Positions 4,763-49,825 of a stretch of DNA of 64,000 nt are shown here, one piece after another. The stretch comes from Pollenia angustigena (lineage: Eukaryota; Arthropoda; Insecta; Diptera; Polleniidae). Each line of letters opens with the position of its first letter. The first letter of the stretch is position 1. The stretch spans positions 216,174,208 through 216,238,207 of the forward strand of contig OV884058.1 of NCBI GenBank assembly GCA_930367215.1. The letters are read 5' to 3'. The notes beneath the pieces are model-generated. The model was not told the origin of the DNA. It saw only the letters and a program-made list of their open reading frames with translations, and searched no databases. The position numbers and the translations under genes are program-made.

Positions 4763-5041
4763 CACTGAAAAAATTTTCTTCACAGATCCAATGAAATTTA
4801 CTTTAAAATTCAACCTATGTAACCTTTCATTGGATTAATGAAGGATTAATAAAATCAATGACAAAATTTTCATTGATTTTATGAATCCTCATTGAAAAAA
4901 TGGATAAAATAAACGTTTGTCATTAAACTAATGCAAAATTTTCAATGATTTTATGAAACATTTCATTAATCCAATGAAAGGTTACATAGGTTGAATTTTA
5001 ATGTAAATTTCATTGGATCTGTGAAGAAATTTTTTTCAGTG
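4763..5041. mobile_element. Foldback MITE, TA target site
   Basis: A nearly perfect palindrome of about 280 bp. The left arm (CACTGAAAAAATTTTC, then CACAGATCCAATG) is inverted at the right (ending TTTTTCAGTG). Both ends abut TA (4761-4762, 5042-5043), as expected for the Tc1/mariner superfamily. The arms cover most of the element, so a transcript would fold into one long hairpin. Confidence 0.8.
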
Positions 5042-5371: not shown

Positions 5372-5563
5372 CGATATTATTAAAGCTGATAGAACCATGC
5401 AAAACCTTATTCATGGTTAGCGAAGTATCAAAGATCATTACAAAAATTAAAATCAAGCAGTACCAGGTACGAACATGCGACCAGGAGAAGCTAAAATAAC
5501 GTGGATGAGCCATGGTAATGCCATAAACAGGCATTATGCCAAATAATTCAGCCATCAAAAAAA
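5372..5563 (-). CDS. Receptor exon 4 (first two membrane helices)
   Basis: The acceptor ACTTTCCTTAG and the donor ATCG|GTAAGT bound 192 nt. Joined to exon 3 it reads K-IFLMAELFGIMPVYGITM, then HPRYFSFSW, WYCLILIFVMIFDTSL and GSISFNNI. This matches the N-terminal quarter of sugar gustatory receptors. The 12-bp target duplication of ribozyme array 1 begins 5 bp from the exon edge and supplies the polypyrimidine tract. No convincing next exon was seen between 1 and 5371. Confidence 0.82.
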
Positions 5564-8500
5564 CTAAGGAAAGTAAAAAAATATTAAAAATTTGGACTAA
5601 AAACCATAAATAGTTCAACAAAATAACCACAATACTAATTATTGTTCAAGCTAAGGCACGAGCTCTATGTGTACATTTGTCCTTCAAGTTGTGCTGAAAA
5701 AGGTCAACAGAAAAGAGAAAGACAAAGTGGAAAAAAAACAAAAAAAATGTACTTGGACTTCAAGAAAAATTCTTGACGAAAGTACGAAAAAACAGAAGTA
5801 AAGGAAAAAACATGTAAAATCAATTAAAATGGATAATCATTCAGGAAAGCAAATTTCGATCTACCAAATGTTAAAATACACTTTGGTTTAAGGATTGATG
5901 TTTGACTAGTGACGTCAGCAGTCGTCGATGGCTGCGAGTGTAAGACGGCAAATCCATCTGAGGAGATCGAGTGGTTGCGATCGAAACATGTCATGGTAAC
6001 CTGCCGGCCAGGGTTCGAGCCCGAGCCACGTCAAGAATGAAAGATTATCAATAACAATTTTAATTAATTTTCATGTTGTAAAATTCCTTTCTTCACAAAA
6101 ATAATTTAATAAAAATTAAATTTCATGAACTTAAGCCTAATTAAAAAAAATATTAAAAATTTGGACTAAAAACCATAAATAGTTCAACAAAATAACCACA
6201 ATACTAATTATTGTTCAAGCTAAGGCACGAGCTCTATGTGTACATTTGTCCTTCAAGTTGTGCTGAAAAAGGTCAACAGAAAAGAGAAAGACAAAGTGGA
6301 AAAAAAACAAAAAAAATGTACTTGGACTTCAAGAAAAATTCTTGACGAAAGTACGAAAAAACAGAAGTAAAGGAAAAAACATGTAAAATCAATTAAAATG
6401 GATAATCATTCAGGAAAGCAAATTTCGATCTACCAAATGTTAAAATACACTTTGGTTTAAGGATTGATGTTTGACTAGTGACGTCAGCAGTCGTCGATGG
6501 CTGCGAGTGTAAGACGGCAAATCCATCTGAGGAGATCGAGTGGTTGCGATCGAAACATGTCATGGTAACCTGCCGGCCAGGGTTCGAGCCCGAGCCACGT
6601 CAAGAATGAAAGATTATCAATAACAATTTTAATTAATTTTCATGTTGTAAAATTCCTTTCTTCACAAAAATAATTTAATAAAAATTAAATTTCATGAACT
6701 TAAGCCTAATTAAAAAAAATATTAAAAATTTGGACTAAAAACCATAAATAGTTCAAAAAAATAACCACAATACTAATTATTGTTCAAGCTAAGGCACGAG
6801 CTCTATGTGTACATTTGTCCTTCAAGTTGTGCTGAAAAAGGTCAACAGAAAAGAGAAAGACAAAGTGGAAAAAAAAAACAAAAAAAAATGTACTTGGACT
6901 TCAAGAAAAATTCTTGACGAAAGTACGAAAAAACAGAAGTAAAGGAAAAAACATGTAAAATCAATTAAAATGGATAATCATTCAGGAAAGCAAATTTCGA
7001 TCTACCAAATGTTAAAATACACTTTGGTTTAAGGATTGATGTTTGACTAGTGACGTCAGCAGTCGTCGATGGCTGCGAGTGTAAGACGGCAAATCCATCT
7101 GAGGAGATCGAGTGGTTGCGATCGAAACATGTCATGGTAACCTGCCGGCCAGGGTTCGAGCCCGAGCCACGTCAAGAATGAAAGATTATCAATAACAATT
7201 TTAATTAATTTTCATGTTGTAAAATTCCTTTCTTCACAAAAATAATTTAATAAAAATTAAATTTCATGAACTTAAGCCTAATTAAAAAAAAATATTAAAA
7301 ATTTGGACTAAAAACCATAAATAGTTCAACAAAATAACCACAATACTAATTATTGTTCAAGCTAAGGCACGAGCTCTATGTGTACATTTGTCCTTCAAGT
7401 TGTGCTGAAAAAGGTCAACAGAAAAGAGAAAGACAAAGTGGAAAAAAAAAACAAAAAAAAATGTACTTGGACTTCAAGAAAAATTCTTGACGAAAGTACG
7501 AAAAAACAGAAGTAAAGGAAAAAACATGTAAAATCAATTAAAATGGATAATCATTCAGGAAAGCAAATTTCGATCTACCAAATGTTAAAATACACTTTGG
7601 TTTAAGGATTGATGTTTGACTAGTGACGTCAGCAGTCGTCGATGGCTGCGAGTGTAAGACGGCAAATCCATCTGAGGAGATCGAGTGGTTGCGATCGAAA
7701 CATGTCATGGTAACCTGCCGGCCAGGGTTCGAGCCCGAGCCACGTCAAGAATGAAAGATTATCAATAACAATTTTAATTAATTTTCATGTTGTAAAATTC
7801 CTTTCTTCACAAAAATAATTTAATAAAAATTAAATTTCATGAACTTAAGCCTAATTAAAAAAAAATATTAAAAATTTGGACTAAAAACCATAAATAGTTC
7901 AACAAAATAACCACAATACTAATGAAAGTAAAAAATATTAATAAAAACTATAATATAAAAAACATGTTTAAATATGGTCACCTCCAACAATACTATGTTA
8001 AAAGAAAATTTTAACCATATTATGTTTAATTTATCCATATTATTGTCAACGACAACCATATTATAGTTAAAATAGTCATCCATCAAGAAGCAACAGGCTT
8101 ATTATGGTTGCCTCCGATCATGTTATGGTTAATAATAACTTAAATATGTTTAACACTTATAATAGCATGGTTAGTTTTCAACCATAGCATGTTCCTCTTG
8201 AAAAAGATTGTTGATTTAAAAACAAATAATTGTCATATTTTACCATAACATGTTTAGAGGCCAACCATATTATGGTTGTGGCTTCTTCATAGGGGAATAA
8301 TTTAACCATTATATGGTTGTCGGTGACAAATATATGGTTAAATTAAACACTATATGGTGAAAATTTTCTTTAAACATAGTATTGTTGGAGGTGACCATAT
8401 TTAAACATGTTTTTTTCTCTGCGTGTACACTTGGAAATGAAAGAGGGTACTTATGAGTTTGTCATTCTGTTTGTAATTCCTACAAGCTATTTTGGGGAGA

Positions 8501-11500
8501 AGTATTTCTGTGGAAAGCAATCGTCAAATATGGACCGATACAAATAAAATTTGTCAAGATGATTTGAATTGAAATAAAATAAGTCTGGTCAAAATTTGAT
8601 CTAAAAACCAACGTAATAAAATGGTTTATAGGCAGAAATACTCTTCTGAGAAAGAAGTTTGTTTGGGGGCCATATGAAATTATGGACCGATTCTGACCAT
8701 TTTCAGTAGGCTTTGTCGTTATGAATTGAAACCTATGTACAAATTTTTATCGAATTACCTTAAATAAGCGACCTGTACGTTGCGCACAAAGTTAGATCGA
8801 GAAACAACCAGCTGGACGGAGTGACATTGTTAAATCGACTCAGAAAGTGATTCTCAAATTTATGATAAAATTTCGTGGATATTTTTTATTTTTTTTTTAA
8901 TTGTACCAAAAATGGATGAACTGTACCAATAAAGTTTCGTTTGTACTAAATTTGGTACAATTCTATCACAAATCCTATCAGTGGTATGAGTACAACAAAA
9001 TTATGTCGAATAGATTTTATAAAAAAATCATTGAAAATGATACGACTTATAAAGTTTATAAAAACCCTACCGGTGATTGAACTAGTACCTAACTAGTACT
9101 AAACAAGTACAAAAATATTCAGTACTAGTTCTCAACTATTGGTTCTAAGCGTGTACTAGTACACTTGGACCACATTGGGACCACATAAGAAACAGTTTGT
9201 TACTAGTTCTTGTGTATACAAAAAATGACCATTTTGCATTAAAAATGGCATAAATAAATGATTTCTAATCAAATTTAAGAAGCAGAATCCAAATACAAAT
9301 ATGTAATCGAATTTCAGTTTTGTTGCACAAAAATTCTATCAGCTATAAGTGGTGCAATTGTACTACATCAAGCACAGGTTAGTTTTTTTTTTTTAATTTA
9401 ACGCCCTTAGCACCAGTACCTCTTGTTCTAGGAACTATACTAGTGGCATTTTGACAATTAACTCTTAATATACTGCATGGAACTAAACAAACGTACACTA
9501 CTGCAGTACTGTTACTTTTTTAATTTAATTACCGATATCGTTAAGTAACGAGAAATCTCGGTTACTTTAACGAATTTGTTAATCTCTTTTTTTAATAAAC
9601 AAATATTTTTGCTTAGAAATATTGACGACAAATATCGGTAAAAATATAAGAATGTCAAAGTTGAAGTTTTTTAAATTTAATAAAAACAAATAAAATAACT
9701 TTTTTCCTTCTTTTATTTACACATTTTAAAGGTCAAATTAAACAAAATATAAGATTTATTAATAAAAACATTTTAAATATTTTTTATAACTAGGCCCTGG
9801 CCGGCAGGTTACCATGACATGTTTCGATCGCAACCACTCGATCTCCTCAGTTGAATTTGCCGTCTTACGTGGTCTTACTGCCGGCCTGTGTTCGAGCCCC
9901 AGCCACGGTCAAGAATGAAAGATTATCCATGACAATTTTAATTAATTTTCATGTTGTAAAATTCCTTTCTTTCATAAAAATAATTTAATGAAAATTAAAT
10001 TTGATGAACTTAAGCCTAATTATAAAAAATATTGAAAATTTGGATTAAAAACCATAAATAGTTCAACAAAATAACCAGAATACTGATTATTGTTAAATCT
10101 TGGGCACGAGCTCTATGTGTACATGTGTCCTTCAAGTTGTGCTGAAGAAGGTCAACAGAAAAAAGAAAGACAAAAATGAAAAAACAAAAAAAATGTACTT
10201 TGGATTTCAAGAAGAATTCTTGACAAAAATACGAGAAAACAGAAGTAAGGAAAAAACATGTAAAATCAATTAAAATGGATAATCATTCAGAAAAGCAAAT
10301 TTCAATCTACCAAAGGTTAAAATACAATTTGGTTTAAGGATTGATGTTTGACTATTGACGTCAGCAGTCGTCGATGGCTGCGAGTGTAAGACGGCAAATC
10401 CATCTGAGGAGATCGAGTGGTTGCGATCGAAACATGTCATGGTAACCTGCCAGCCAGGGTTCGAGCCCCAGCCGCGGTCAAGAATGAAAGATTATCAATG
10501 AAAATTTTAATTAATTTACATGTTGTAAAATTCCTTTCTTTCATAAAAATAATTTAATGAAAATTAAATTTGATGAACTTAAGCCTAATTATAAAAAATA
10601 TTGAAAATTTGGATTAAAAACCATGAATAGTCCAACAAAATAACCACAATACTGATTATCAGGGCAAGGAAGTTCATGCACTTAAAATCGCAAAATATGC
10701 GCATAAAACATGCACTAAAAATCGCAAAATATGAAAAAACTTTTTTAAAACTGCATAAAGTTTGGCTTGTATTTTTCGCCGATTTGACCTTCTACTTTTC
10801 TTATTTGAACGACAGCATGACGCTTCAACCGTGTTCAACCGAGGTGTTCAATGATTTAAACCCCTGGAGTTCGGTTATTGTCTCGACTAGAAACCCATTG
10901 TTTAAGTGAATAAATTCGAATTGAGCCTTTGTATTAGGTACGTTTAAAATATTGTTTACTTTTTATAGCGACTGCATTATTTTCGTTAAAATTATTTACC
11001 ACATCCTTAAATTCTTCAAAATTTTTGGCATAATACTCCATCTTGTTATACATGCTTGAAACGCGAAGGTGACTTTAAAAACTTGCATGTATGGCATGAG
11101 CTTAGCATGTGACATGTTACATTGTTGGGTAAGATACCTTTAAAAAATGTCAAGTAGAGCAACATTTTATTTTTATTTAAGTCTTCTAAAAGAGAAATTG
11201 AGTCTTTGAAAGTTCGAGCTAATGAAGCATGATTCATTCACCTTTTCCAACTTTACAATATTAAACAAAAATTTGTGTTTACTCTGTTCTTCTTCGGCAT
11301 TCAAGATCCCAACAATTACGTATACCACGAAACGTCCTTCAGTGTCCATTGTTTCGTCAATAGACAGCCACAAATTATGTGGCTTAATCCTTTCAACAAC
11401 GTCACATAGTTCTATAGTGTACAACTTGACGAGATAAGTTTTTCTAAGGGTTGTTTCCGTAGGATTGGTTGGTATATTTGTTTAAAGAAATTCTAAAATT

Positions 11501-23996: not shown

Positions 23997-24509
23997 TTAA
24001 TATTTAATGCAGTGTTGTCCGATGTTATCGTTTAAAGTTTTTCTCACTGACTGTCTTATAATTTTCTTTTGTTTATTAATCTTGTGTTTGTTAATTGTAT
24101 GACGATATATGTGAGCGCAATTATCAGTATCCGTTTTGTAGTTAATTCTCTTTTCGTTTGGTGTATTTATAATATGTAGCATCTCCTGCATGTATCGTTT
24201 AGTGTAATTATTCTCTCCCACAAGTATTCTCACCTTATCGAAGTGTGGTTGATGTCCCGTTTTTGCACAGTGGGCTGCTAGTGCTGTTTTTTTTTTTTTT
24301 TTGTTAAAGGTTTGTCATTTGATTTTAAGTCGGATTTGTGCGATGATAATCTTGTCTTTAGTTTTGTCTTCGTTGTACCAAATATATCTTTTGGCATATG
24401 TCAGTATCGTCCCCTTTACAAGCTGATATACTAGATTGGATTTATCTAGTTTGTCTATTCTGGATTTCATGTTATTAAACAATCTGTTCATTGTGTTGCT
24501 CGTTTTCAT
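23997..24509 (-). pseudogene. Penelope-type GIY-YIG endonuclease remnant
   Basis: GIY-YIG nucleases nick DNA to prime Penelope reverse transcription. The frame begins MNRLFNNMKSRIDKLDKSNL-VYQLV, shifts, continues IFGTTKTKLKTRLSSHKSDL (the GTT..KxR..HK signature with its catalytic Arg), then an AAAAA-rich stutter. It ends TALAAHCAKTGHQPHFDKV, NNYTKRYMQEMLHI (conserved Glu) and a short tail to 23997. At least one frameshift and a damaged YIG (FGT) argue against activity. Confidence 0.75.
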
Positions 24510-24602: not shown

Positions 24603-27102
24603 ATTAAACAAAAAAAAAAACCCTAAAGCGAATAAGAATTATAAACACTCTAAGTCTTACTTTTAACAATATCAAAGCTTAAACAAAACACCAACAACAA
24701 ACAGTGAGTTTATCTTTTCTTATTATTTTTATTTTACTAAATATTATAATTTTGTGTTCATGTTAGTTTGTTATTGATTTTTTAATACATCCGGGATATT
24801 TGCGTCTATAATCTTGGACAACTTTTAATACATATTGTTTTTGCTCTTCATTTTTTTCCATTAGTTTGACTCCCCTTTCCGCAGTGTCGTCGACTACCCT
24901 TAATTGCCCAATAATTTCTTCAGAATTTGATTCTAAGAACTCTTGATTTATAAGGAATCTTTCGAAAAAAAGTTTTGTTTCCATGGACACAAATTGTTGC
25001 ATTACATTGTCTATGATGGTTGAAATATTTTGATTAGCAATAATGGGTCGCTTTATATTTTGAGCACCGTCACCAACATTCTTAAGGGCTTCAACCATTT
25101 TTGCTTTAGTGCTGTTCGGTACTCTTGAATCAAAAAATGCTAGAGCAATGTTTTCAAGATTTAATTACCACTAATGGCTTTGCATTTTTGTAATGGCAAC
25201 TCGCGACAAGCAGTGTGACCCTTTTAGCATTTTCACTGCTAAATTTAGCATTATTTATTTTGATTTAACAGCGAATTTTTGAAATAGCATTTAGCATTAT
25301 TATCAGCATTTTTGTAATATTTTTTTAGCATTATTTAGCATTTTTTAATCTTAAAAATTTTATATATTGCTATTTCACAATATAACTTATCACTTCTCTA
25401 TAATCACTCAATCTCTATAATTCTCTATCTCTATAATCTCTATAATTGTATTTTGTCATTTATACGTTTATACAAATGTATAATAATGGTAACCCTGTAA
25501 ACACCAAAAAAAATTAAGGAAGAAATGGTAGATTTTACTACAGAAGAAATAACGGTTTTAGAACAGCAATGCCAAAAGCATACGAATTGATGAACCAAAG
25601 TTCAACTATTGAATACTGGATAGGTGTTTAGAATATGATGAGAACAGATCATATTCTAATGGTATTTGCCAACAATTTGGATATTAAGGAAAAGGCTGTT
25701 TTCCTAAACGCCTGTTGCAATGTAGTAATACAAGGCGACATGTTCTTAAATGCATCCATAAACATTTTGACAATGCATTTAGTTCCGAAATGCAACTTTG
25801 TAGTTGTCACTGTGCAGAGAAAAGCAAATAAAGCAGTTAAAATAATGTAGATGCAAAACATATTCATATACAATACAAAGTAGGTGAAAATTTAAGTACA
25901 CAATGCATCAACACGGTATTGAGACATTGGGAACACACGTTTAGGAAAACAGCCAAACTATTCATATAATGGTGTGTTTAATGTGTAATTAAAAATACTA
26001 AAAATGCTGTTGAGTAGCCTTTTATGTTTTCAATGATAATTTTTGTTTTTACTTATATTTTGTATTTAATAATATATATCTGTGGCAATAAATAATAATG
26101 GCTTAAGTTGACTAAAGTGCTTGTTAATTTTATTACATATTCTTATTATCTTCTTCAAGATCTATAACGCAGTTAAATTTCAAGTATAAAATGTCATTAT
26201 TTATAAAACTTTACGCATTTATATTTAAACTTTCACAATACAACACACAATTCATTTGAGACAAAACCCTTAATATCTCAAAACACAAAATTTCGACTTA
26301 AGTCGTTATTATTTATTGCCGCAGATATGTACATATGTATATCGTTACCTAAAACGCAAAAAACCCTATCTAACATTTTGAAAATTTTACAAAAAAACTA
26401 TTTAAAATGATAAACTTATTAATCGCCTTAAACTGTTTGCAATTTATTTTTCTTCTACTTTTCTTGTAAAATCTAAAAGCCCAACCATAATATGCATAGC
26501 CTTGCCTAACCTACTGTCAAAAATTAACAAAAAGTCTCTCAAATGTATTTAAAAAACAAAACCAAAAAACATTTGATTCCGTACGGAATGTGCGGTCAGT
26601 TTCGCCATTTGCTTAAGGAAATGACAGTTTCATAAAACTAAACAAAAATTTTCTTTAAGTTCAATATGATTTACATGGATTTGCACATTTGCTTAAGCCA
26701 ACTTAAGCACATTATGGTTGCGCCTTAACAGTTTCTTTTGACAGTTGACAATGTTGCATATTTTGCAAACTGTAGGTTAGGGCTTTAAGCGTTTATCATG
26801 TAATATTTTGTAGATATGGCCTTATGTTTTTTTTGGTTAAAAAATCGCTAACTTTTGTCAAACTACTAAATTGTTTTTATTAAATAAATCTATGTATTAT
26901 TAGTATTGTGGTTATTTTATTGAACTATTTATGGTTTTTAATCCAAATTTTTAATATTTTTAATTAGGCTTAAGTTCATTAAATTTAATTTTCATTAAAT
27001 TATTTTTATGAAGAAAGGAATTTTACAACATGAAAATTAATTAAAATTTATTGATAATTTTTCATTCTTGACTCAATCTGGGCTCGAACCCAGGTGTTTA
27101 CG

Positions 27103-27160
27103 GACAGGTTACCCTGACATGTTTCGATTGCAACCACTCAATCTCCCCAGAGGGCTTGCC
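27103..27160 (-). ncRNA. Hammerhead ribozyme with a core mutation, array 3
   Basis: Stem I CCCT/AGGG, stem II GATTG/CAATC, GAAA and ACATGTC are intact, but the core reads CTGGGGA instead of CTGAGGA. The invariant A is lost, so cleavage is expected to be impaired. The site would be between 27116 and 27115. Confidence 0.7.
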
Positions 27161-27670
27161 GTTTAACACTCGCAGCCATCGACGACTGCTGACGTCATTA
27201 GTCAAACATCAATCCTTAAACCAAATTGTATTCAACCTTTGGTAGATCGAAATTTGCTTTGAATGATTATCTATTTTAATTTATTTTAACATGTTATTCC
27301 TTTACTTCTGTTTTTTCGTACTTTTGTCAAGAATTCTTCTTGAAGTTCAAAGTACATATTTTTTGTTTTTTCATTTTTTTTTTGTCTTTCTTTTTCTTGT
27401 TGACCTTTTCAGCACAACTTGAAGGACAAATGCAAACATAGAGCTCGTGCCTTAGCTTTAACAATTATTAGTATTGTGGTTATTTTATTGAACTATTTAT
27501 GGTTTTTAATCCAAATTTTTAATATTTTTAATTAGGCTTAAGTTCATTAAATTTAATTTTCATTAAATTATTTTTATGAAGAAAGGAATTTTACAACATG
27601 AAAATTAATTAAAATTTATTGATAATTTTTCATTCTTGACTCAATCTGGGCTCGAACCCAGGTGTTTACG

Positions 27671-27728
27671 GACAGGTTACCCTGACATGTTTCGATTGCA
27701 ACCACTCAATCTCCTCAGAGGGCTTGCC
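27671..27728 (-). ncRNA. Type I hammerhead ribozyme, array 3
   Basis: Intact CTGAGGA and GAAA core. Stem I CCCT/AGGG and stem II GATTG/CAATC keep pairing although both differ from array 1. The upper stem is GGCA/TGTC with a wobble. Predicted cleavage lies between 27684 and 27683. Confidence 0.85.
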
Positions 27729-28238
27729 GTTTAACACTCGCAGCCATCGACGACTGCTGACGTCATTAGTCAAACATCAATCCTTAAACCAAATTGCATT
27801 CAACCTTTGGTAGATCGAAATTTGCTTTGAATGATTATCTATTTTAATTTATTTTAACATGTTATTCCTTTACTTCTGTTTTTTCGTACTTTTGTCAAGA
27901 ATTCTTCTTGAAGTTCAAAGTACATATTTTTTGTTTTTTCATTTTTTTTTTGTCTTTCTTTTTCTTGTTGACCTTTTCAGCACAACTTGAAGGACAAATG
28001 CAAACATAGAGCTCGTGCCTTAGCTTTAACAATTATTAGTATTGTGGTTATTTTATTGAACTATTTATGGTTTTTAATCCAAATTTTTAATATTTTTAAT
28101 TAGGCTTAAGTTCATTAAATTTAATTTTCATTAAATTATTTTTATGAAGAAAGGAATTTTACAACATGAAAATTAATAAAAATTTATTGATAATTTTTCA
28201 TTCTTGACTCAATCTGGGCTCGAACCCAGGTGTTTACG

Positions 28239-28296
28239 GACAGGTTACCCTGACATGTTTCGATTGCAACCACTCAATCTCCTCAGAGGGCTTGCC
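28239..28296 (-). ncRNA. Type I hammerhead ribozyme, array 3
   Basis: Same as the 27671-27728 copy, core intact. Predicted cleavage lies between 28252 and 28251. Confidence 0.85.
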
Positions 28297-30325
28297 GTTT
28301 AACACTCGCAGCCATCGACGACTGCTGACGTCATTAGTCAAACATCAATCCTTAAACCAAATTGTATTCAACCTTTGGTAGATCGAAATTTGCTTTGAAT
28401 GATTATCTATTTTAATTTATTTTAACATGTTATTCCTTTACTTCTGTTTTTTCGTACTTTTGTCAAGAATTCTTCTTGAAGTTCAAAGTACATATTTTTT
28501 GTTTTTTCATTTTTTTTTTTTGTCTTTCTATGTATGTATATAATTTTTTTCATATAAACTTCATTTTATTTCAAAGAAATATAATATTTTCAGGTTAATT
28601 AATGTATAATTCATTCATTAAACTGAATCAATTATTTAAAAAAATTTAGCATTTTAAAATTTTATTTTTAGCATTGTTTTAATCCCCATTTAGCATCCAA
28701 TTTTTTTTAGTTGTGGTCACACTGGCGACAAGTCTTTGTCAATACTTTTAATATAGTGAGTTTTGCAAGAACAAAAAAATCATTATAGGGGGCGTGAATG
28801 GGTAAGTTGCATGAAAACCAAGCTACGACGAATATTGTTACTATAAAAATGCATATTTTTCGCAAGTCATTTTCTTCTTGTTTCGGAAATTAAAACTCTT
28901 CGCGGAACAAAAACATTTTTAGGCTGTTAATAGCTTTTGACATCCACCTAGCGTGATGAGCTGCACCCGGTGCTCGAAACTTTACGGTATTGGGGTTTTT
29001 TGATGTTTTCCCTATGTTTTCTCTTGGCTGTTTTTCTGTGAGCATTGTCTCAACAAAACTTTCAACACAACTGCTGGAATTTTTTAAATGTCGGAATGCC
29101 GTTTTGTTTTCAATCCCAGAACGAAAGTTTTGTAAATAAAATTTTGGCCATGCAGTCTTAAATTGTTCGAAAATGGCCACATTCGGACATCCTTTTTTTA
29201 CAAATTTCTCTTCAAAAATTCTTCGCAAAATAATTTCATAGATATGGTGTCTTCATGGTAACCATAAAAGTGATATATCTTAAAAATGTCTAATGATAGC
29301 GCAGGTTCCATTTATACGACCGGTGTTGACGGCTGTTGTGTCAAATACCATGGCTTTAATGTGGTCCTGAAGGTTCCATTCTTGAATGACATTACAAACC
29401 GCTAATGCTTGTTGTTTTCTGGTTCACCTTCTAAGGAAGGAACTTGAAGCAACTGCTCATTGCATCAGCTTGAAATAATTATAGGCAGCCTGTTAATTTT
29501 ATCGTTTCCAGTTAAAGCGGGTAATAGCTTTCCATCCCAATGCAAGCATAGAGCATCTAGTGTCATGGCTTTGAATTGTTCTTTCAGAACTAAAACGTGC
29601 TCTTTTGCCAGTCTTTGTCTTGCATTTCTATTTATAATATAATTTTGTGGATCTAGTTCTAACGCTTCAACTGTCGCAATAAGAATATGCACTGCTTTTC
29701 TGTCGCTTGGCCTTGTGAAAATTTAAAGCAGACTGTTTGTGAAACAAATGGGCATTTTATGAACATGTTAATATGAAGTATAGGGTTTTTTACGATAATT
29801 TCTAGTTTATTTTCTAAATATACGATTTACAGAAAAGTCGTTTTGAGCTATGTTGTAATAAAATTAGTATTAATTAAATATTAATTATATAAAAAAAAAT
29901 GTTTTCAAACATTGGAGGGCGTGGCGACTCGCCTTAATCTAAACTGATTCGTCTAAAATTTTTTTTAGGATAGTTTTTCTCTTATACCAATCGATTTGGT
30001 GTACGAGAGTATGAAAAAATACGGAAAAAAAGTTTCTAAATAATGAGTGAGAGAAGCTATTCATTTTGAAAAAGTATGCGAAGTTTTTACTGGGTATTCT
30101 CTACTTGCAATATATTTATTTTCGAATAAGTGGTGCGTATAAACGTAGTATGTGTCAATTAGAAACTAAATACCAAATTATTGATCCGCATGCAAAAATG
30201 TGGGTCTATTTGCCAATATTTTTAGATGCAACAAACATCAGCACATTCGCAAAATACCCTCTTCACTGGCAAGATTATGGCATGGGTATAAATATTAAAT
30301 TTATTTAATTTTTTAACTATGATAT

Positions 30326-33300
30326 GGGTAATTCCATGTCAAATCGACCAAGAGTGGGACCCGACCCCTTTCGATTTGAATGAAATTTGGTGAGAAGGTT
30401 CCTTTTATCCTATAAGGAACATATATGAACGAAAAAAATTTTTTAAATTTTTTTTTCAAAAGTTACGTCATATTCAAAATGGCATAATTTCGCCGAATTA
30501 ACCGAATATGTTGAGTTTATTTTTTCTATATCTCAAAAACTACTGCACATACGAAGATGATTTGTATGTCATTTTAAAGAGAATACTTGGGGCTATAAGC
30601 AATATATTGAAGAAAAAATTTTTTTTGGAAAAAATGTAATATCTGCAAAATATTAAATTTTTAAAATGGACTAAGTCAAAAACCTAATTTTTTTTTTGCC
30701 TAATTTTTTTTTATATAATACCTCAAACTGTTCTTTAAAAATCCTAAAACTTTGAAGGAGGTGTTTTTTTTTTTTTTTTAGATATGAATTTTTTTCTTTC
30801 GCAACCTTTAAAAAAATTACCTAAAAATAAAATTTTAAAATTTTAATTTTGAGCAATAAGTATTTATAAAATCTGATTTGTTTGAAAAAGTAATATTATT
30901 GGTAAGATTGTTTTTGTTTATTTGTTGCATCTTTTGTTGGGGCTCAATGTGGGCATTTTTTTAAGAAAAGTACACCTTTTGTCACGTTACGTCTTTGAAA
31001 GTCGTTTTTTCTTCGTCTCTTTTCCTACCGATAATGCCGGGCTGGTTTCTACAGTTAATACAGTAAAAAAATCGCTGTGCTTAATGCACTTTCAGTCGAC
31101 ACTGATTTAATTGTCAACCATATGTAAGTCTGAAATCAATTATTGCAATTATTCGTGTTTGGAATAGCAAAAAGTGTGATTTTTTTTATTTAAAATAAAT
31201 AATAGTCAAAACGGTAATCATGGAAAGTAATAAGTGTTCAATTGGCATAGTTAATAATGAGGTATGCTCTGAGGGAAAATTCATTAATTGTGTAGATCTT
31301 CCTGATAAAGAACGCATTACTCTTAATGCTAGAAGTGGTATTGTGGTCAGTTTTGTTTGCGATAAGCATGATAGAGAATTTTGTGAAAAATACACCTTAA
31401 ACCAAAAAATGTGTGCTGATCCGTATAACATTCATGTAACTCGAGTACAAAAATCATTGAAAGTCGTTACTTTTGAGATTTATACTCATGTTAAGGTAAT
31501 GTTTCCTTTAATTGCACCCGGGAAAAAACTGTGTATTTCGTGTTGGAAAAAAATTAGTATTGAAGTGGAAAAATATCAACAAGTGATGCCCCCATCTGAA
31601 CAAGATGATGTGACATCTGAAATTTGTAGTTCAACAAGTGAAACTGTTTGTTCAAAAACAATTAATCTTGATCGTGTCAATGCTGTTGCAAAAATACTCG
31701 GGTTGTCTCCTCTTAAAAAAAAATACTTAAATCGATCAAAAACTTATGTCCAGCAAAAATATTATGAAATTATATCTAAACTACAATCATGCTGTAAGCA
31801 TGTTACGGATAGTTCTTTTGACTCAATTGACGATGACAATTTAATTGTTGATGACAACCCAGAATTAACTGGAAAAGAAATGATAGTACAGTTGAAGAAC
31901 AAATTTGATAATACTAGCAAATTGAGTGAAAAATTACAAATCCTGTCAGTCTTACCATCAAGTTGGTCAACCCAAAAAATTGTTGATATTTTCGGAGCAA
32001 CTTCGTACATGGCTAAAAAAATTAAAGAAAACGTAAAAAAAGATGGCATTTTATTCATTCCTGAAAAACATAAAGGTCATCCGTTGTTAAAAACCACGGA
32101 AGAAAAAATTCAAGAGTTCTTTAGAAAACAAGACGTCAGCAGAGAACTACCCGGTAAAAAAGAATATAAATCTGCTTATGAAAACGGTCTGCGAGTGCAA
32201 AAACAAAAACGGTTAATCTTGGGTAACCTAAGTGAAATTTTTCACATGTTTAAAGAAAAATATCCATTTGAAAAAGTTGGTTTTTCAAAATTTGCAAGTT
32301 TAAGATCACCCGAATGTGTTCTAGCTGGTGCATCTGGTACGCACGTAGTATGTGTTTGCCGGATTCATGAAAATTTTAAAATGCTATTTCAAGGTGCTAG
32401 ACTTGAAAAACTAAAAATGAAGGATGGATCTCAACCATTTTCTTCATATAAAGATTGTATGAAAATGGTTATTTGTAAAACACCTACGGATGACTGTTAT
32501 CTTGGTGTATGCAATGCTTGTCCCGGCTCGTCCAAATTAAAAAATATTCTCGAAAATCTTTTTACGGAAAACTGTTTAGATGACATTACATATAATCAGT
32601 GGATTCAAGTAGACCGCTGCTCTTTGGAGACAGTTATAAAATCAACTGAAGATTTCGTTGATTTTGTTGTAGAATATATTCCAAAATTACTTTCTCATGA
32701 CTTTGTAGCTAAACAACAAGCCGAATATTTTAAAACTACGAAAAATAATCTTGAGATAGGGCAAGTTCTTGTTGTTGCTGATTTCTCTGAAAATTATTCG
32801 TTTTTACTTTAAAATAGTGTTCAAGGAGTGTATTGGAATAACAGACAAGCGACAATTCATCCATTCGCTTGCTATTATAGATCCATTGCTGAGAATGGAA
32901 GTGATATCGTACCTCTTAGCTTGGTAATAATATCAGATAACTTAACTCATAATACTACTGCAGTTTACAGCTTCCAAGAGACATTAACGACGTTCCTTAA
33001 ACATAAGACTCCAAATATTTCAAAAATAATTTATTTTTCTGATGGTGCTGCATCCCAATATAAAAATCGTTACAATTTAGTAAATTTGATACACCACGAA
33101 GAGGATTTTCAAATTCGAGCAGAATGGCATTTTTTTGCAACTTCTCATGGAAAAGGGCCAAGTGATGGTTTGGGTGGAACAGTTAAGCGATTAGCTAGCC
33201 GAGCCAATCTACAATTGACACCTGATCAACAAATTCAGACACCCGAGCAACTGTGTCGATGGGCGAAAGATAATATTCAAGGAATCAATTTTAATTTCGT

Positions 33301-34323
33301 CTCAGATCAACACATTCAACGTACTGGAAAAAAACTGGAAAATAGGTTTAAAAATGCTTCACCAGTTCAAGGAGTACGTTCCTGTCATGCCGCCATTCCT
33401 ATTTCGAATAAATTTATCAAAATAAAAACTTTATCTTCATCTAGCGAAGGAGAGGATGGTAAATTGAACAATATCGACAAGATTCTGAGCGAACCAGGCT
33501 TTAAAACCAGGTAAAAAATAACGTTTTAATTCTTAATATTGTATTAACATTGAATAAGGCTTCAACATTCATAGCATTTTCATTTATTTTAGGTTAAGAA
33601 AAAGCAGCCCGGCATTAACGGTAGGAAAAGAGACGAAGAAAAAACGACTTTCAAAGACGTAACGTGACAAAAGGTGTACTTTTCTTTAAAAAATGCCCAC
33701 ATTGAGCCCCAACAAAAGATGCAACAAATAAACAAAAACAATCTTACCAATAATATTACTTTTTCAAACAAATCAGATTTTATAAATACTTATTGCTCAA
33801 AATTAAAATTTTAAAATTTTATTTTTAGGTAATTTTTTTAAAGGTTGCGAAAGAAAAAAATTCATATCTAAAAAAAAAAAAAAAACACCTCCTTCAAAGT
33901 TTTAGGATTTTTAAAGAACAGTTTGAGGTATTATATAAAAAAAAATTAGGCAAAAAAAAAATTAGGTTTTTGACTTAGTCCATTTTAAAAATTTAATATT
34001 TTGCAGATATTACATTTTTTCCAAAAAAAATTTTTTCTTCAATATATTGCTTATAGCCCCAAGTATTCTCTTTAAAATGACATACAAATCATCTTCGTAT
34101 GTGCAGTAGTTTTTGAGATATAGAAAAAATAAACTCAACATATTCGGCTAATTCGGCGAAATTATGCCATTTTGAATATGACGTAACTTTTGAAAAAAAA
34201 ATTTTAAAAATTTTTTTCGTTCATATATGTTCCTTATAGGATAAAAGGAACCTTCTCACCAAATTTCATTCAAATCGAAAGGGGTCGGGTCCCACTCTTG
34301 GTCGATTTGACATGGAATTACCC
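30326..34323 (+). mobile_element. Sola-like DNA transposon with 720-bp terminal inverted repeats
   Basis: The left repeat (30326-31044, starting GGGTAATTCCATGTCAAATC) and the right repeat (33604-34323) are nearly identical inverted copies. The flanking ATAT at both sides (30322-30325, 34324-34327) could be a 4-bp target duplication, the length reported for Sola; because ATAT is palindromic, it could instead be part of the repeat. One transposase gene fills the middle. High identity of the repeats implies recent insertion. Confidence 0.8.
31220..33514 (+). pseudogene. Sola-like transposase, single in-frame stop
   Basis: One frame from ATG 31220 to 33514 (about 764 codons) is interrupted only by TAA at 32810-32812, where neighbouring context (NYSFLL-stop-NSVQGVYWN) suggests a Gln codon changed by one base. 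The N-terminal part has paired cysteines (CDKHDREFC, CISCWKK). The middle has a helix-turn-helix-like SWSTQKIVDIFGATSY. The core has VVADFSENYS, IIYFSDGAASQYKNR and HFFATSHGKGPSDGLGGTVK, matching the DDE core of Sola enzymes as I remember it. Assignment to Sola1 or Sola2 was not attempted. Confidence 0.75.
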
Positions 34324-44932: not shown

Positions 44933-47900
44933 TTAACTATTGTTAAAATTGTATTCATCGACTAAAAATTTTCTATATGTTAATGCATTTTTTACAAAAA
45001 GATAAAGTGAACTCCAGTTTTCTTCTCTTCCCCCATTTAGAAGATCATAAATTTCATAATCTGTAAGTCTTGAGTACACTAGGAATTTTCTTCGTATATT
45101 TGCAAGTATTGGGCACCTTCCTATAAAGTGCAAAATTGTTTCATCTTCATTCAGGTTACACAAAGAACAAAGAGTGGATTGATTGGTGGTATATTTATTT
45201 GAATTTAGCATTAAAAGATCTCCGCGAGTTTTCATTATTAAGGATATTTGGTGTTGGTTATATTTTTCGTTACAATAGGTAAGGCCTTTTGAGTGGTCTA
45301 AAAACTTATATATTCGTTGTTGACTTTTTAGTGCAGTTTCGCGGTAGTTTTGACTAGATTTAGATTTCATAGTATCAATTAACGATTTGCACGAGTTATT
45401 CCATATGTTTTTAGATTGGTGTATATTATTTGAATTCAAATCAAAAGAATTCAAACGATCAACGTAATTTTTGTACCAGTAAATGTTTTTTGATATTATT
45501 TTTGATGAAAGTCTGTGAGGTAGCCTATGATTTTCATATTCGAAAAGCGTCTTAGAAATATATTGAAGGTGTAGACTGTAAGTATACAGGTGTGCATCTT
45601 CTTGACCGGTTTCTAGAGCAAGTACGTAGTTTGGGGTATTTTCTGGTAATTTTAATATGCGTTTAGTAAAAAACCTTTGCAATTTATCAACAATGTCAAA
45701 CCAACCCAGGCCCCAAACCTGAGCCCCATATGCTTGTATAGATCTGCAAACAGCTTGAAATAACTTCCACTTTGCCTTTAGCGACACATCCCTTTTTGCA
45801 ATAAAACTTTTCCACGTGATATTTACACAAACTTTTGCAGCATCATTTTTTGTAGTTATATGTTTCGTGTAAGACATTGCCGGAGTTAGTATAATACCTA
45901 AATACTTGTATTGAGCCACGACTTTTACCTCATCTCCTTTAAACTTCCACTTTTCATTTAAGGCAACACGACCACCTTTCCTAAAAACCATTATCTCCGA
46001 TTTTGTTAAGTTCACTTCCATTCCCCATGTTTCACAATATATTTCCAAATTATTTATCATTCTCTGTAGGACGCTTATATTTTCGGCAAGAATGACAATA
46101 TCATCCGCATACATTTAAATTCTTATGTTCAGTTCATCTATGAACAGACCGCCTTCCAGTTGCTCATGAAGGTCATTTAGATACAAGGAAAACAACAAAG
46201 GCGACAACAAACATCCTTGTTTTACGCCAGAGTTTGTACTAAAGTAATCTGAGATTTCATCTCCAGTCCATACTGCAGAAAATGTATGTTTATATACATG
46301 TTCTAAAAAGTTAACTATTTTTGTGGACAATCCCATTTGGCGTAGTTTATACATTAAAAGTTGTCTTGGTATGCGATCAAAGGCAGCTTTAAAGTCCACA
46401 AAAAACGCGTAGACTCTCTTATGTTCATGAAACTTGATATTGACAATTGCCGTTAAATTATAGATGCTATCAACGAATAGCCTTTACGAAAACCAGCTTG
46501 GAACTCATTTAAAGTTTTATAGTTTGTGGTCCATTGTGTTAATCTTTCATGTATAGCACCCATCATTATCTTGGCTAAGCAATTCATGAAGGAAATTCCC
46601 CTATAATTGCATGGCATATTAGCATCTCCTTTTTTATGTATTGGGAAAACAATACTACGCTCAAACACCTCAAAAGAACCACTTCCGTTTAATATATTTG
46701 TAAAGACTTTCGCCAAAGCGCTTAAAAAGTTATTACTTGCGTTTATAAAAAATTCATAGGGTATTCTATCCTCACCCGGCGCTTTGTTTTCTTTGACCTT
46801 TGCCAGTACCAACCTAATCTCTTGCAGTGTAAAAACTTTATCTAGATCTGTATCCACGACTAAATTAGCCGCATACTCCATCTCCAGTGCTCTACTTTGC
46901 GGGTTTAACAACATTTCAAAGTATTCTTTAAAATTTTCTGCGCTTATATTATTTCCAACCAATCGTTCTTCTTGCCTTATTTCTTTAGCTACTAGCCACC
47001 ATTGTTTGCTGTCTTTAACCAAGTTTAACTTTTGTTCTAATTGTTTATAATAATTTACTTTTTTTGTTCTACAAATTGTTTGATATTTGTTCTTCTTCTC
47101 TGTGTATTTTTCTTTATCAACATCATCTTGAGAGATTCTAAACTTTTGTAAAGCTGCGAGGGATTTTTGCCTCGCATTATTGCATTGAATATCAAACCAT
47201 TTATTCTTAAATTGTATGTGTTTGCCATTTTTTTTTTGTACTTTATACGATTCAACAATTAATTTCGACATATCGCTTAAGTTAAGATTGTCTTTATATT
47301 TTTGTATTTCATTTAAATTTGAATTAAGCTTGGCACAATAATTATCTTTGTTGTTGTAGTTCCATTTTAACTTTGGCAATAGGTTCATTTTCCTTTTATC
47401 ATTTTGTGTTGTTGTGAAATTAAGGTAAAGTGTGATTGGTAAATGATCAGACCATGTTTGATTATCCACAGTAAATTTTTCGACCATTGTTAATATATCA
47501 AGTGACACTGCGCATATATCATTTACTGAATTTCCTGAACTGCCAACATACGTGAAACAACCTTCTCCATCGCCTGCTGTTCTTCCATTTAAAATCACCA
47601 GACCATAATTATTACAAAAATCGATAAATGTTTTGCCATTTGGTTTTACAACTTTGTCCATTGACTTTCTACCACTTAAGCCAGCCTTAAAGGAATTTTC
47701 GAGAATTTCATCCAAATATTGTTGCTCTTCGCCAATTCTGACATTCAGATCGCCCATTATAATAGGGTTGATTATTTCATTTTCAAGTAAGGCATTAACT
47801 AAGTCCTCAAACTCATTGCCCCAATTTGCACCGCGTAAGTAAGCTGGTATTATCGTGAAGTTTTTTGAATTTAATTTTACAACCATAGTATCAACACTGC

Positions 47901-48294
47901 CATATGTCCTCATTTCAAACTTCACTCCAAAATTAGTTAAATTTTTACGAATACCAAAAACATAGCCACCAATACCTCTTCCAAACCTGCTATTACGTGT
48001 AGCTGATTTCCATTTAATATTAAAATTTTTGAATTTACCATTAAATTTTTCAAAACTACTATTTTCGACATGTGTCTCCAACAATATAAATATATCTGAT
48101 TCCCATAAGTACTCAAATAAATCCAGATTATCAAATTTATTATTTAAACCGTTAACATTATAAGCAATTATTTTAAGTGTACAATTTTTATTTTCATTAC
48201 ATAAATTCTTATCAACTAAACATTGATTAACATTTTTAACTTTACTACATCCGGCTATACTTAGTTTTTTTGATTTAACAATGACATATAACAC
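44933..48294 (-). pseudogene. LINE-B ORF2: endonuclease and reverse transcriptase, one frameshift and one stop
   Basis: Endonuclease: LKIIAYNVNGLNNKFDNL, FILLETHVENSS, PIIMGDLNVRIGEE and TWSDHLPITLYL. Reverse transcriptase: ENKAPGEDRIPYEFF, YRGISFMNCLAKIMMG, FQAGFRKGYS, a one-base frameshift near 46475, VDFKAAFDRIPRQLL, GVKQGCLLSPLLFSLYLNDL, then TAA at 46115-46117 directly before MYADDIVILAE. C-terminal: KYLGIILTPAMSYTKH and a zinc-knuckle-like CSLCNLNEDETILHFIGRC. Only two lesions in about 1,120 codons, so it is a young copy. Clade not assigned. Confidence 0.87.
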
Positions 48295-49136
48295 AAATTT
48301 ATTGAATCAATTTTATCATTAAAAATCGTTTTTAAAAATTCTTTGCCATTTTGACTACCACACATTAATAATTTATCTTTATTCCAAAATAGCCATTTCT
48401 TATCAATTCTCATCCTATCATTTCTCACTAGTATTTTTAAATCTTTATTCAATGACTTAAGTTGTGTTTTTAATTGTAACATAACTTTTTTATTTTGTTG
48501 CTTTTCATCACTTAAATCTTTATCTACGAATACAGAGGTACCTTTAAGTTTCTTGGCGTTGTTAAAAACTGCATTTGCCATTTCTTCCGTCCTGAATTCT
48601 GCCACTCCACATACCGTTTCATCTGTCTCATACAGCTTACGGACCCATTTCACAACCAAATCCGGGATTCCCATTGTTTCAGCACATATTTTAGTAATAT
48701 TTTCTTTCAAATCACCATTTTTTTTAATACCACGGAAGACTACATTTTTTTGTTTGCTTTTATCTACTAGACGCATTAGCTCTTGATGATCCTTCTGATG
48801 TTCGAATTTTAGTATTTTTACCTCTTCCTTCAATGCCTCATTTTCCATCTTTAAATGTCCAACTTGTGAGCAGCAATCTTGCATTGTTTGTTTTACCTCC
48901 TCTATGTCGGCTTTGGTAGATAAATTTTTTAACTTCTCATCAAGCACCGTTTGAATTGAACCTTGAATTATGCTAACGATATCGTTTAGCTGCATATTTG
49001 CCGGTAAACTACTCGCCCCTGCATTTGACATCTCTTCTGGAGTTAACTCCGACTGCTTTCTTTTGGCTTGTTGGGTATTTGGTGTTGACAGTTTACCGTC
49101 GCTGGTTATCGTTCTTTGCATCCTAAAAGTATGCAA
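48261..49136 (-). CDS. LINE-B ORF1 protein, intact 291 codons
   Basis: An uninterrupted frame. Residues 1-45 are polar. About 50-120 is a heptad-rich coiled coil (IQTVLDEKLKNLSTKADIEE onward). About 125-235 is an RRM-like block (NVVFRGIKK ... VCGVAEFRTEEMANAVF ... GTSVFVDKDLS) resembling the transposase-22 / L1-type ORF1 fold. A basic tail follows. It would coat element RNA and act as a chaperone in the cytoplasm. The start at 49136 was chosen as the first ATG; a second Met lies five residues in. Its 3' end overlaps ORF2. Confidence 0.75.
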   Translation of the reverse strand: MHTFRMQRTITSDGKLSTPNTQQAKRKQSELTPEEMSNAGASSLPANMQLNDIVSIIQGSIQTVLDEKLKNLSTKADIEEVKQTMQDCCSQVGHLKMENEALKEEVKILKFEHQKDHQELMRLVDKSKQKNVVFRGIKKNGDLKENITKICAETMGIPDLVVKWVRKLYETDETVCGVAEFRTEEMANAVFNNAKKLKGTSVFVDKDLSDEKQQNKKVMLQLKTQLKSLNKDLKILVRNDRMRIDKKWLFWNKDKLLMCGSQNGKEFLKTIFNDKIDSINLCYMSLLNQKN

Positions 49137-49825
49137 CCGCTTTTTCGTTTTTTATAATTTATATTTAAGATCAACAACAGCTTTTTAAATTTACGTTCCA
49201 AAAAGCTCAATTGTGTTTATTTAAAAGCTCAGTTGTGTATATTTAAAAGCTTTTATATATTTTGCTTCTACAGGTAGCTTTTGTTTACAAATGCAACAAA
49301 ATAAAAATATAACCGGCAACATTTAACACCATCAGCTGACTTTTATACAACTATTAATTTTTTTTTATTTTTTTTATTTGTCTCTCATTGGGATTTTGAC
49401 TAATTTTAAAATCACTTTATACAAAAGTAAATGCAATTATATGCTTAGTTTATTTTTTCAAAACGTGGGTTTTTCTTAATATTTTCGATTTTTCTATGTT
49501 ACAAACTTTATACACGTCTTTCAATTATAAAAACTTTATTCAAAACAGAGAGCACTAAAAACACAACTTTACACCACCGACTATACAGACAATCTCCCAT
49601 TATATGGGACACCATTAATACGAAGATCTGACGCAATAATTGAATTTTCTTGTCGTTGCAGTTGTATTTTTAATTTACCAACTTCACTTTTAAGACTAGT
49701 AATGTCATCTGCAACCGTTTCTAATTTTGAAACTCGTTGGGTAATATTTAAAATATCAGATTTCATATCATTAAAACGTTTATCAAATCCTTCTAACATA
49801 CGCGCCTCACTTTCTGCAATTACTG

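Follow-up and report, generated by a model that had tools for sequence, protein, structure and literature searches.

The window, by which we mean the whole 64-kb stretch of DNA analysed here, contains three loci built from one family of non-coding units, 568-573 bp in length and with a GC content of 30-33%. Locus A (5582-7923, + strand) is the youngest insertion and comprises 4.1 tandem units that differ pairwise by 0-2 aligned substitutions and by the lengths of their A-runs; by eye a single substitution, in unit A2, is real, and the second apparent one reflects the placement of a gap in an A-run. When cut at the 3' end common to all loci, the array yields units of 569, 569, 573 and 573 bp and a 58-nt partial unit on the 5' side. 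The original prediction described this array as a tandem non-coding unit of 569 bp. The tandem arrangement and the non-coding character hold, the longest ATG-started open reading frame in circularised units of A and C being of 56 amino acids, whereas a uniform spacing does not: the distances between predicted cuts are 569, 572 and 573, since the A-runs vary in length, and the CTGAGGA cores start at 5958, 6527, 7099 and 7672. Tandem Repeats Finder, whose longest period is 500, returned no entry for array A. A single switch of sub-type is located at about 6720-6870, with units 1-2 and units 3-4 differing at three A-runs.

The prediction extended to array A only, and loci B and C are additional insertions in the window. 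Locus B is formed by an inverted 5' part (9795-9868, - strand; unit positions 517-590 reversed), in which the hammerhead has a broken stem I, and by a direct part (9878-10659, + strand) ending in ACTGAT at 10656, or at 10659 if TAT is counted. Locus C (26899-28528, - strand) has about 2.8-2.9 units and ends in ACTAAT at 26899; its 5' limit of 28528 was set by eye, and BLAST gives 28507. Per unit, the identity to A is 94% for B and 90% for C, that is, a divergence of 6-10%. The units of C differ by 3 aligned substitutions in all, compared with 34-55 per unit between loci. The overlapping parts of B differ at 10 of 213 positions, which indicates that B is older; A and C are young.

Several other sequences that look mobile were noticed in the window. 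Directly to the right of array A, at about 7958-8415, a long inverted repeat (AAACATGTTTAAATATGGTCACCTCC and its reverse complement) appears MITE-like by eye, as does a palindromic repeat at about 4809-4997 (TTCAACCTATGTAACCTTTCATTGG and its reverse complement). Open reading frames of LINEs lie between 41859 and 49151; one LINE (44933-49151, - strand) has endonuclease and reverse transcriptase domains and, by eye, short repeats of TCTAA type at its end, and the reading frame 46453-48306 gave 51 matches, the species-named ones being from Stomoxys calcitrans, Haematobia irritans and Glossina fuscipes with 39-49% identity, which is consistent with a higher fly as host. At 31199-33514 (+ strand) two adjacent reading frames look like a mobile gene common to many insects. 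The first has 189 matches, and the named ones among the 120 listed include Psylliodes, Microctonus and Brassicogethes (56-75% identity over part of the length) and one match named 'Cc8L18.2-like'. Finally, a reading frame at 23997-24314 (- strand) has two relatives, P0052 (79% identity) and P0053 (58% identity). We take all three to resemble the short GIY-YIG endonucleases of Penelope type; Pfam recognised none of them.

Ends of the three insertions

All three loci end at one position of the unit, 216-219 nt past the predicted cut, in the sequence CACAATACT[AG]AT (at 7923, at 10656 or 10659, and at 26899). The probability that three random ends fall within 4 nt is 0.00016. The 5' ends vary, being located at about unit position 152-160 in A, about 293-310 in C and 517 in B; those of A and C are blurred by A-runs common to the flank and were placed partly by eye. 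Locus A is flanked by a target-site duplication of 12 bp, or of 16-17 allowing one A of difference, with the sequence GAAAGTAAAAAA on the left (5569-5580, +), where it continues to TATT with one extra A, and on the right (7924-7935, +). Locus C has, by eye, a 9-bp duplication of ATACATAGA on the 5' side (28527-28535, -) and on the 3' side (26889-26897, -). No clear duplication was found at locus B. Its unit positions 517-590 are inverted and followed in direct orientation from unit position 9 (equivalent to 578), with a 13-nt overlap and 9 nt of filler between the two parts, a form which presumably corresponds to the 5' inversion known as twin priming.

The common 3'-terminal sequence (7875-7923 in array A, + strand; 10 copies in the family) consists of a hairpin TTGGAYT/AGTYCAA followed by the A/C-rich end CACAATACTAAT. 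In this hairpin, located just before the 3' end, the seven pairs are standard in each of the 10 copies, with pair changes from C-G to U-G and from G-U to G-C. The A/C-rich end AACCACAATACTAAT falls in the loop of a 5-bp hairpin in A and C, as do 8-12% of all positions, and in the inner copy of B one arm of that hairpin is changed. By eye the tails of the LINEs in the window are unlike the 3' end of the unit.

The combination of a common 3' end, varied 5' ends, duplications and an inversion is the footprint to be expected if target-primed reverse transcription started within an RNA that was circular or several units long. Together with the B box described below, these features likely make a tandem repeat with a predicted ribozyme into a retrotransposon. 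A satellite DNA, in which unequal crossing-over spreads the repeat and the hammerhead trims the transcripts as in cave crickets, would also give a tandem arrangement and has an insect precedent in hammerhead repeats of roughly 500 bp (PMC2837043). Nevertheless, three short loci that are dispersed, measure 1.5-4.1 units and share their 3' end, two of them with duplications and the third with a 5' inversion, look like insertions, and we regard a satellite origin as quite improbable.

The hammerhead motif and its copies

The order of elements in the unit is GGCA-AAT-CCAT (stem I), CTGAGGA, GATCG-AGTGGTTG-CGATC (stem II), GAA, ACATGT (stem III), C and ATGG-TAACC-TGCC (stem I). As had been claimed from the first reading of array A, a complete motif is found in every one of its four copies, with CTGAGGA, a perfect 5-bp stem II (GATCG/CGATC), GAAA, ACATGT, the site GTC before ATGG and a two-part stem I (CCAT/ATGG and GGCA/TGCC). 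All core letters and the pairs G10.1-C11.1 and A15.1-U16.1 match a type I hammerhead. Within one copy ACATGT can provide a single A-U pair closed by CATG; across two copies it provides six pairs. A weak closing stem, TGAC/GTCA, was seen by eye around the hammerhead. The four hammerheads of A (+ strand) are located at 5947-6005, 6516-6574, 7088-7146 and 7661-7719, with predicted cuts after 5992, 6561, 7133 and 7706, and the intact one of B (+) at 10393-10451, with the predicted cut after 10438. Those of C (-) lie at 28239-28296 and 27671-27728, both with compensated stems I and II, and at 27103-27160, where the core reads CTGGGGA (A6 to G) and is predicted to be inactive. Over the whole family, seven of nine copies are intact, with a complete core and an NUH site. 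The two damaged ones, this third copy of C and the inverted copy of B at 9795-9868, fit the pattern that decay after insertion would give.

A motif as strict as this was absent from 20,000 simulated units (first-order Markov, one strand). A looser pattern was sought on both strands of 100 simulated 64-kb windows (200 scans): it appeared with stems of at least 4 bp each in 3 scans, and with stems of at least 3 bp each in 10. Thus a single loose match means little, and four in a repeat, with compensated related loci, mean more. A different hammerhead-like motif was noticed at 24596-24540 (- strand), with CTGATGA, a 5-bp stem II with G-U at its base and the palindromic ATGCGCAT as stem III. It was rejected as a member of the family on account of the G-U first pair of stem II and of the loose matches in 3 to 10 of the 200 simulated scans; it sits just upstream of the Penelope-endonuclease-like reading frame and might be a minimal hammerhead belonging to a Penelope-like remnant.

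The comparison between A and C supports the fold. Stem I is CCCT/AGGG in C and CCAT/ATGG in A (A-U to C-G), stem II is GATTG/CAATC in C and GATCG/CGATC in A (C-G to U-A), and in the outer stem a G-C pair of A becomes G-U in C. The 13 pairs thus show two double compensatory changes and one G-U, a count that depends on a gap of one base, placed by structure in loop I of C, which MAFFT places differently at equal cost. For 13 random A-U/G-C column pairs of the A-C alignment, the probability of at least two double changes is 0.0008, whereas the lack of any broken pair among the 13 is unremarkable by itself (P = 0.26). With the gap placed by structure, five A/C changes fall in paired positions and a standard pair is kept each time. 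Given such compensation between loci, the hammerhead fold was probably selected. Between A and C the hammerhead evolves no more slowly than the remainder of the unit (6 of 58 positions changed, against 45 of 463 elsewhere); between A and B there are no changes in the 96 nt from TGACGTCA through the end of the hammerhead, compared with 34 of 467 elsewhere. Upstream of the hammerhead, the sequence TGACGTCAGCAGTCGTCGATGGCTGCGAGTG at 5910-5940, which includes the CRE-like TGACGTCA, is identical across the aligned units of all three loci. The original assignment to a type I hammerhead of the retrozyme kind, with a stem III that would be good only between two copies, is accordingly kept as a prediction from sequence whose fold is backed by covariation, and self-cleavage of the unit RNA is likely.

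The motif did not pass the covariance-model search that the original prediction had offered as a check, and for which it had counted the absence of a match as a refutation: Rfam gave no match at gathering score anywhere in the 64-kb window, and no hammerhead at E<=10 in 5400-8000. In a 121-base slice (5925-6045) RF00163 (Hammerhead_1) scored 15.3 bits (E 0.33) against a gathering cut-off of 34, and a 131-base slice of locus C gave nothing. In the printed consensus of RF00163, stem III consists of three pairs and a loop, and for this reason we give the Rfam miss less weight than the covariation; it is still a failed test. Folding did not return the hammerhead either. With RNAfold, the 59-nt stretch of A has -11.2 kcal/mol as a hammerhead and -14.9 at the minimum free energy, the double hammerhead of A (two 59-nt stretches) -27.4 against -35.0 kcal/mol, and C -7.9 against -14.2 kcal/mol for the preferred fold; these programs leave the hammerhead core unmodelled. 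Single-strand folding of three stretches gave no hammerhead, one of them (27694-27730) being too short to contain it. The circular fold of one A unit is stable (z = -3.0 against 60 Markov sequences) and lacks the hammerhead. The score below the Rfam threshold and the differing minimum-energy folds speak for an ordinary non-autonomous retroposon that resembles a hammerhead by chance, but the absence of the strict motif from the simulated units and the two double compensatory changes render such a coincidence very improbable.

The B box and possible transcription by pol III

An exact match to the pol III B box, GGTTCGAGCCC, is located at 6012-6022 (+ strand) and is the first of eight in the family. 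The B box starts 20 nt past the cut in A and B (6012, 6581, 7153, 7726 and 10458, +) and 26 nt past it in C (28226, 27658 and 27090, -); the partial first copy of B has none. Exact matches to GGTTCGANNCC number eight in the window, all inside units of the family. No convincing A box was found: the best candidates agree, depending on the consensus, at 6/8, 4/6 or 6/9 positions, at several places each, and none was accepted for that reason. Runs of four T, with five in one copy of C, begin 66-70 nt past the cut (unit positions 66-83), where a pol III transcript would probably end. A tRNA identity of the unit was rejected, as Rfam gave no tRNA match in 5400-8000 or in the slices of A and C and ARAGORN found none.

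These data bear on another reading, namely that the unit is a SINE related to tRNA and transcribed by RNA polymerase III; stem-loop II would then be an altered D-arm and the hammerhead incidental. The exact B box, present in eight units and nowhere else in the window, speaks for it, as does loop II (AGTGGTTG), which we take to resemble a D-loop. The lack of a recognisable tRNA, the unconvincing A box, the T-runs so close to the cut and the covariation of the hammerhead stems speak against it, and we consider this reading unlikely; the B box itself may possibly be a promoter part or a tRNA relic. There is a precedent in the hammerhead repeats of schistosomes, which are described as SINE-like and tRNA-containing (PMC2770079, PMC4918200); in these Sm-alpha and Sj-alpha repeats the hammerhead is tied to a full tRNA, whereas the fly unit has only the B box.

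Proposed mode of copying and relation to known elements

We propose, as the rather likely interpretation, that the family is a mobile element of retrozyme type without coding capacity, whose predicted self-cutting RNA of about 569 nt would be copied by a borrowed reverse transcriptase from a fixed internal start on circular or multi-unit RNA. The element is real, carries the predicted ribozyme and was probably mobile in recent times. In this mechanism a transcript of at least two units would pair two hammerheads via the palindromic ACAUGU, forming a 6-bp stem III, with the cut between GUC and AUGG, and the monomers would be circularised by a host RNA ligase. A reverse transcriptase that carries an endonuclease, supplied by a LINE or Penelope-like element, would then nick AT-rich DNA, and copying would begin near ACAAUACUAAU, 216 nt past the cut. 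The enzyme would go round 1.5 to 4.1 times and stop anywhere, and the resulting tandem insertion would be fixed at its 3' end and free at its 5' end. LINEs too leave target-site duplications and 5' inversions.

The circle is a plausible template. Units that are near-identical within a locus, with 34-55 differences between loci, are to be expected if one template molecule served each locus, and a fixed 3' end combined with lengths that are not whole numbers of units (about 1.5, 2.8-2.9 and 4.1 at the three loci of the 64-kb window) agrees with repeated copying of a circle. The A-run lengths of A1 and A2 differ from those of A3 and A4, which one round template would give only with a template jump or with crossing-over at a later stage; a mixed template would be another source. 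A linear multi-unit transcript may have served instead, with a fixed internal start on read-through RNA and an upstream stop; circles would play no part in insertion, and the hammerhead may cut other RNA. In vitro, a Penelope-like enzyme can begin at an internal site of RNA that has not been cut, and remains active when the hammerhead is dead (PMC11167929), and the two sub-types within array A fit a template of unlike units. On the other hand, the near identity of units per locus, against 6-10% between loci, comes for free with a circle and from a linear array only after homogenisation, and the stems are maintained by compensation. We hold the linear template to be possible, though doubtful.

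Among known systems, the fly family is best placed with the non-LTR retrozymes, its unit being larger than those described. Animal retrozymes are described with type I hammerheads, tandem non-coding units of low GC content, no LTR and duplications of more than 4 bp (PMC7229834, PMC4918200). The metazoan non-LTR retrozymes of coral, mussel and axolotl share with the fly element the type I hammerhead, the tandem non-coding units, a GC content below 45%, the lack of an LTR, duplications of more than 4 bp and several units per insertion (PMC7229834). The hammerhead repeats of animals measure 150-450 bp and retrozyme RNAs 170-400 nt (PMC7229834, PMC7761336, PMC4918200), a reported range that is not strictly defining, compared with 568-573 bp for the fly unit. 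In the same accounts insects are named without detail, the duplications of Nematostella are of 15 bp, a tRNA is given for schistosomes only, and no promoter or helper is reported. The stem III of the fly element is of the amphibian (newt-like) kind, with one A-U pair and a palindromic tetraloop, whereas most invertebrates are described with a stable stem III. It also has an exact B box, while animal retrozymes seem to be without promoters in the account cited (PMC7761336), and one fixed internal 3' end, unlike metazoan non-LTR retrozymes as described. A common 3' end for animal retrozymes was absent from the literature matches listed; as far as that search goes, the integration signature is new. 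The exact hammerhead pattern had no match in viral_contigs and genome_contigs, collections not meant for animal genomes.

The pDo500 satellite of Dolichopoda cave crickets resembles the fly element in its insect host, its unit of roughly 500 bp, its compensatory stem changes and its double-hammerhead model (PMC2837043). It differs in making up about 5% of one genome (PMC2837043), whereas the fly element forms short dispersed insertions with duplications.

Penelope-like elements provide a possible parallel for the fixed end. In Anolis, the Penelope-like enzyme is described as starting reverse transcription inside the RNA, downstream of the hammerhead and at an AC-rich stem-loop; the ends of genomic copies coincide with these start sites, and the enzyme has no need of its own hammerhead in vitro (PMC11167929). 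Penelope-like elements with minimal hammerheads share with the fly element the short stem III and the tandem or partial-tandem insertions, and the fixed internal 3' end downstream of the hammerhead is in them a demonstrated initiation site (PMC11167929) and in the fly family a putative one. The distance from the cut to the 3' end is 216 nt in the fly element and about 85-92 in those elements (PMC11167929). The fly unit is non-coding, whereas Penelope-like elements code for a reverse transcriptase and a GIY-YIG endonuclease, and by BLAST it has no match to the endonuclease-like remnant in the window. We tentatively suggest, as a bolder and rather doubtful extension, that a Penelope-type enzyme docks at the internal hairpin of the 569-nt circle and inserts 1.5-4 turns of cDNA, in which case retrozymes would be the circular non-autonomous arm of Penelope-like elements, here with their own pol III B box.

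The dipteran hammerheads in print, from Musca, Rhagoletis, Hermetia and D. pseudoobscura, have been assigned to type III, with helices I and II both long (PMC7936874), whereas that of the fly element opens at stem I. A type I retrozyme in a fly was not among the literature matches listed, which is no proof of absence. With the present family, a fly-like genome would hold a type I hammerhead of the dimer type, the ones found in print for flies being of type III (PMC7936874). Array A, with one real substitution by eye besides its A-run lengths, represents young and nearly intact material for work on the RNA, and the family, with its sharp common 3' end, its duplications and its 5' inversion, gives a motif and a putative start site for tests against purified enzymes of LINEs and Penelope-like elements.
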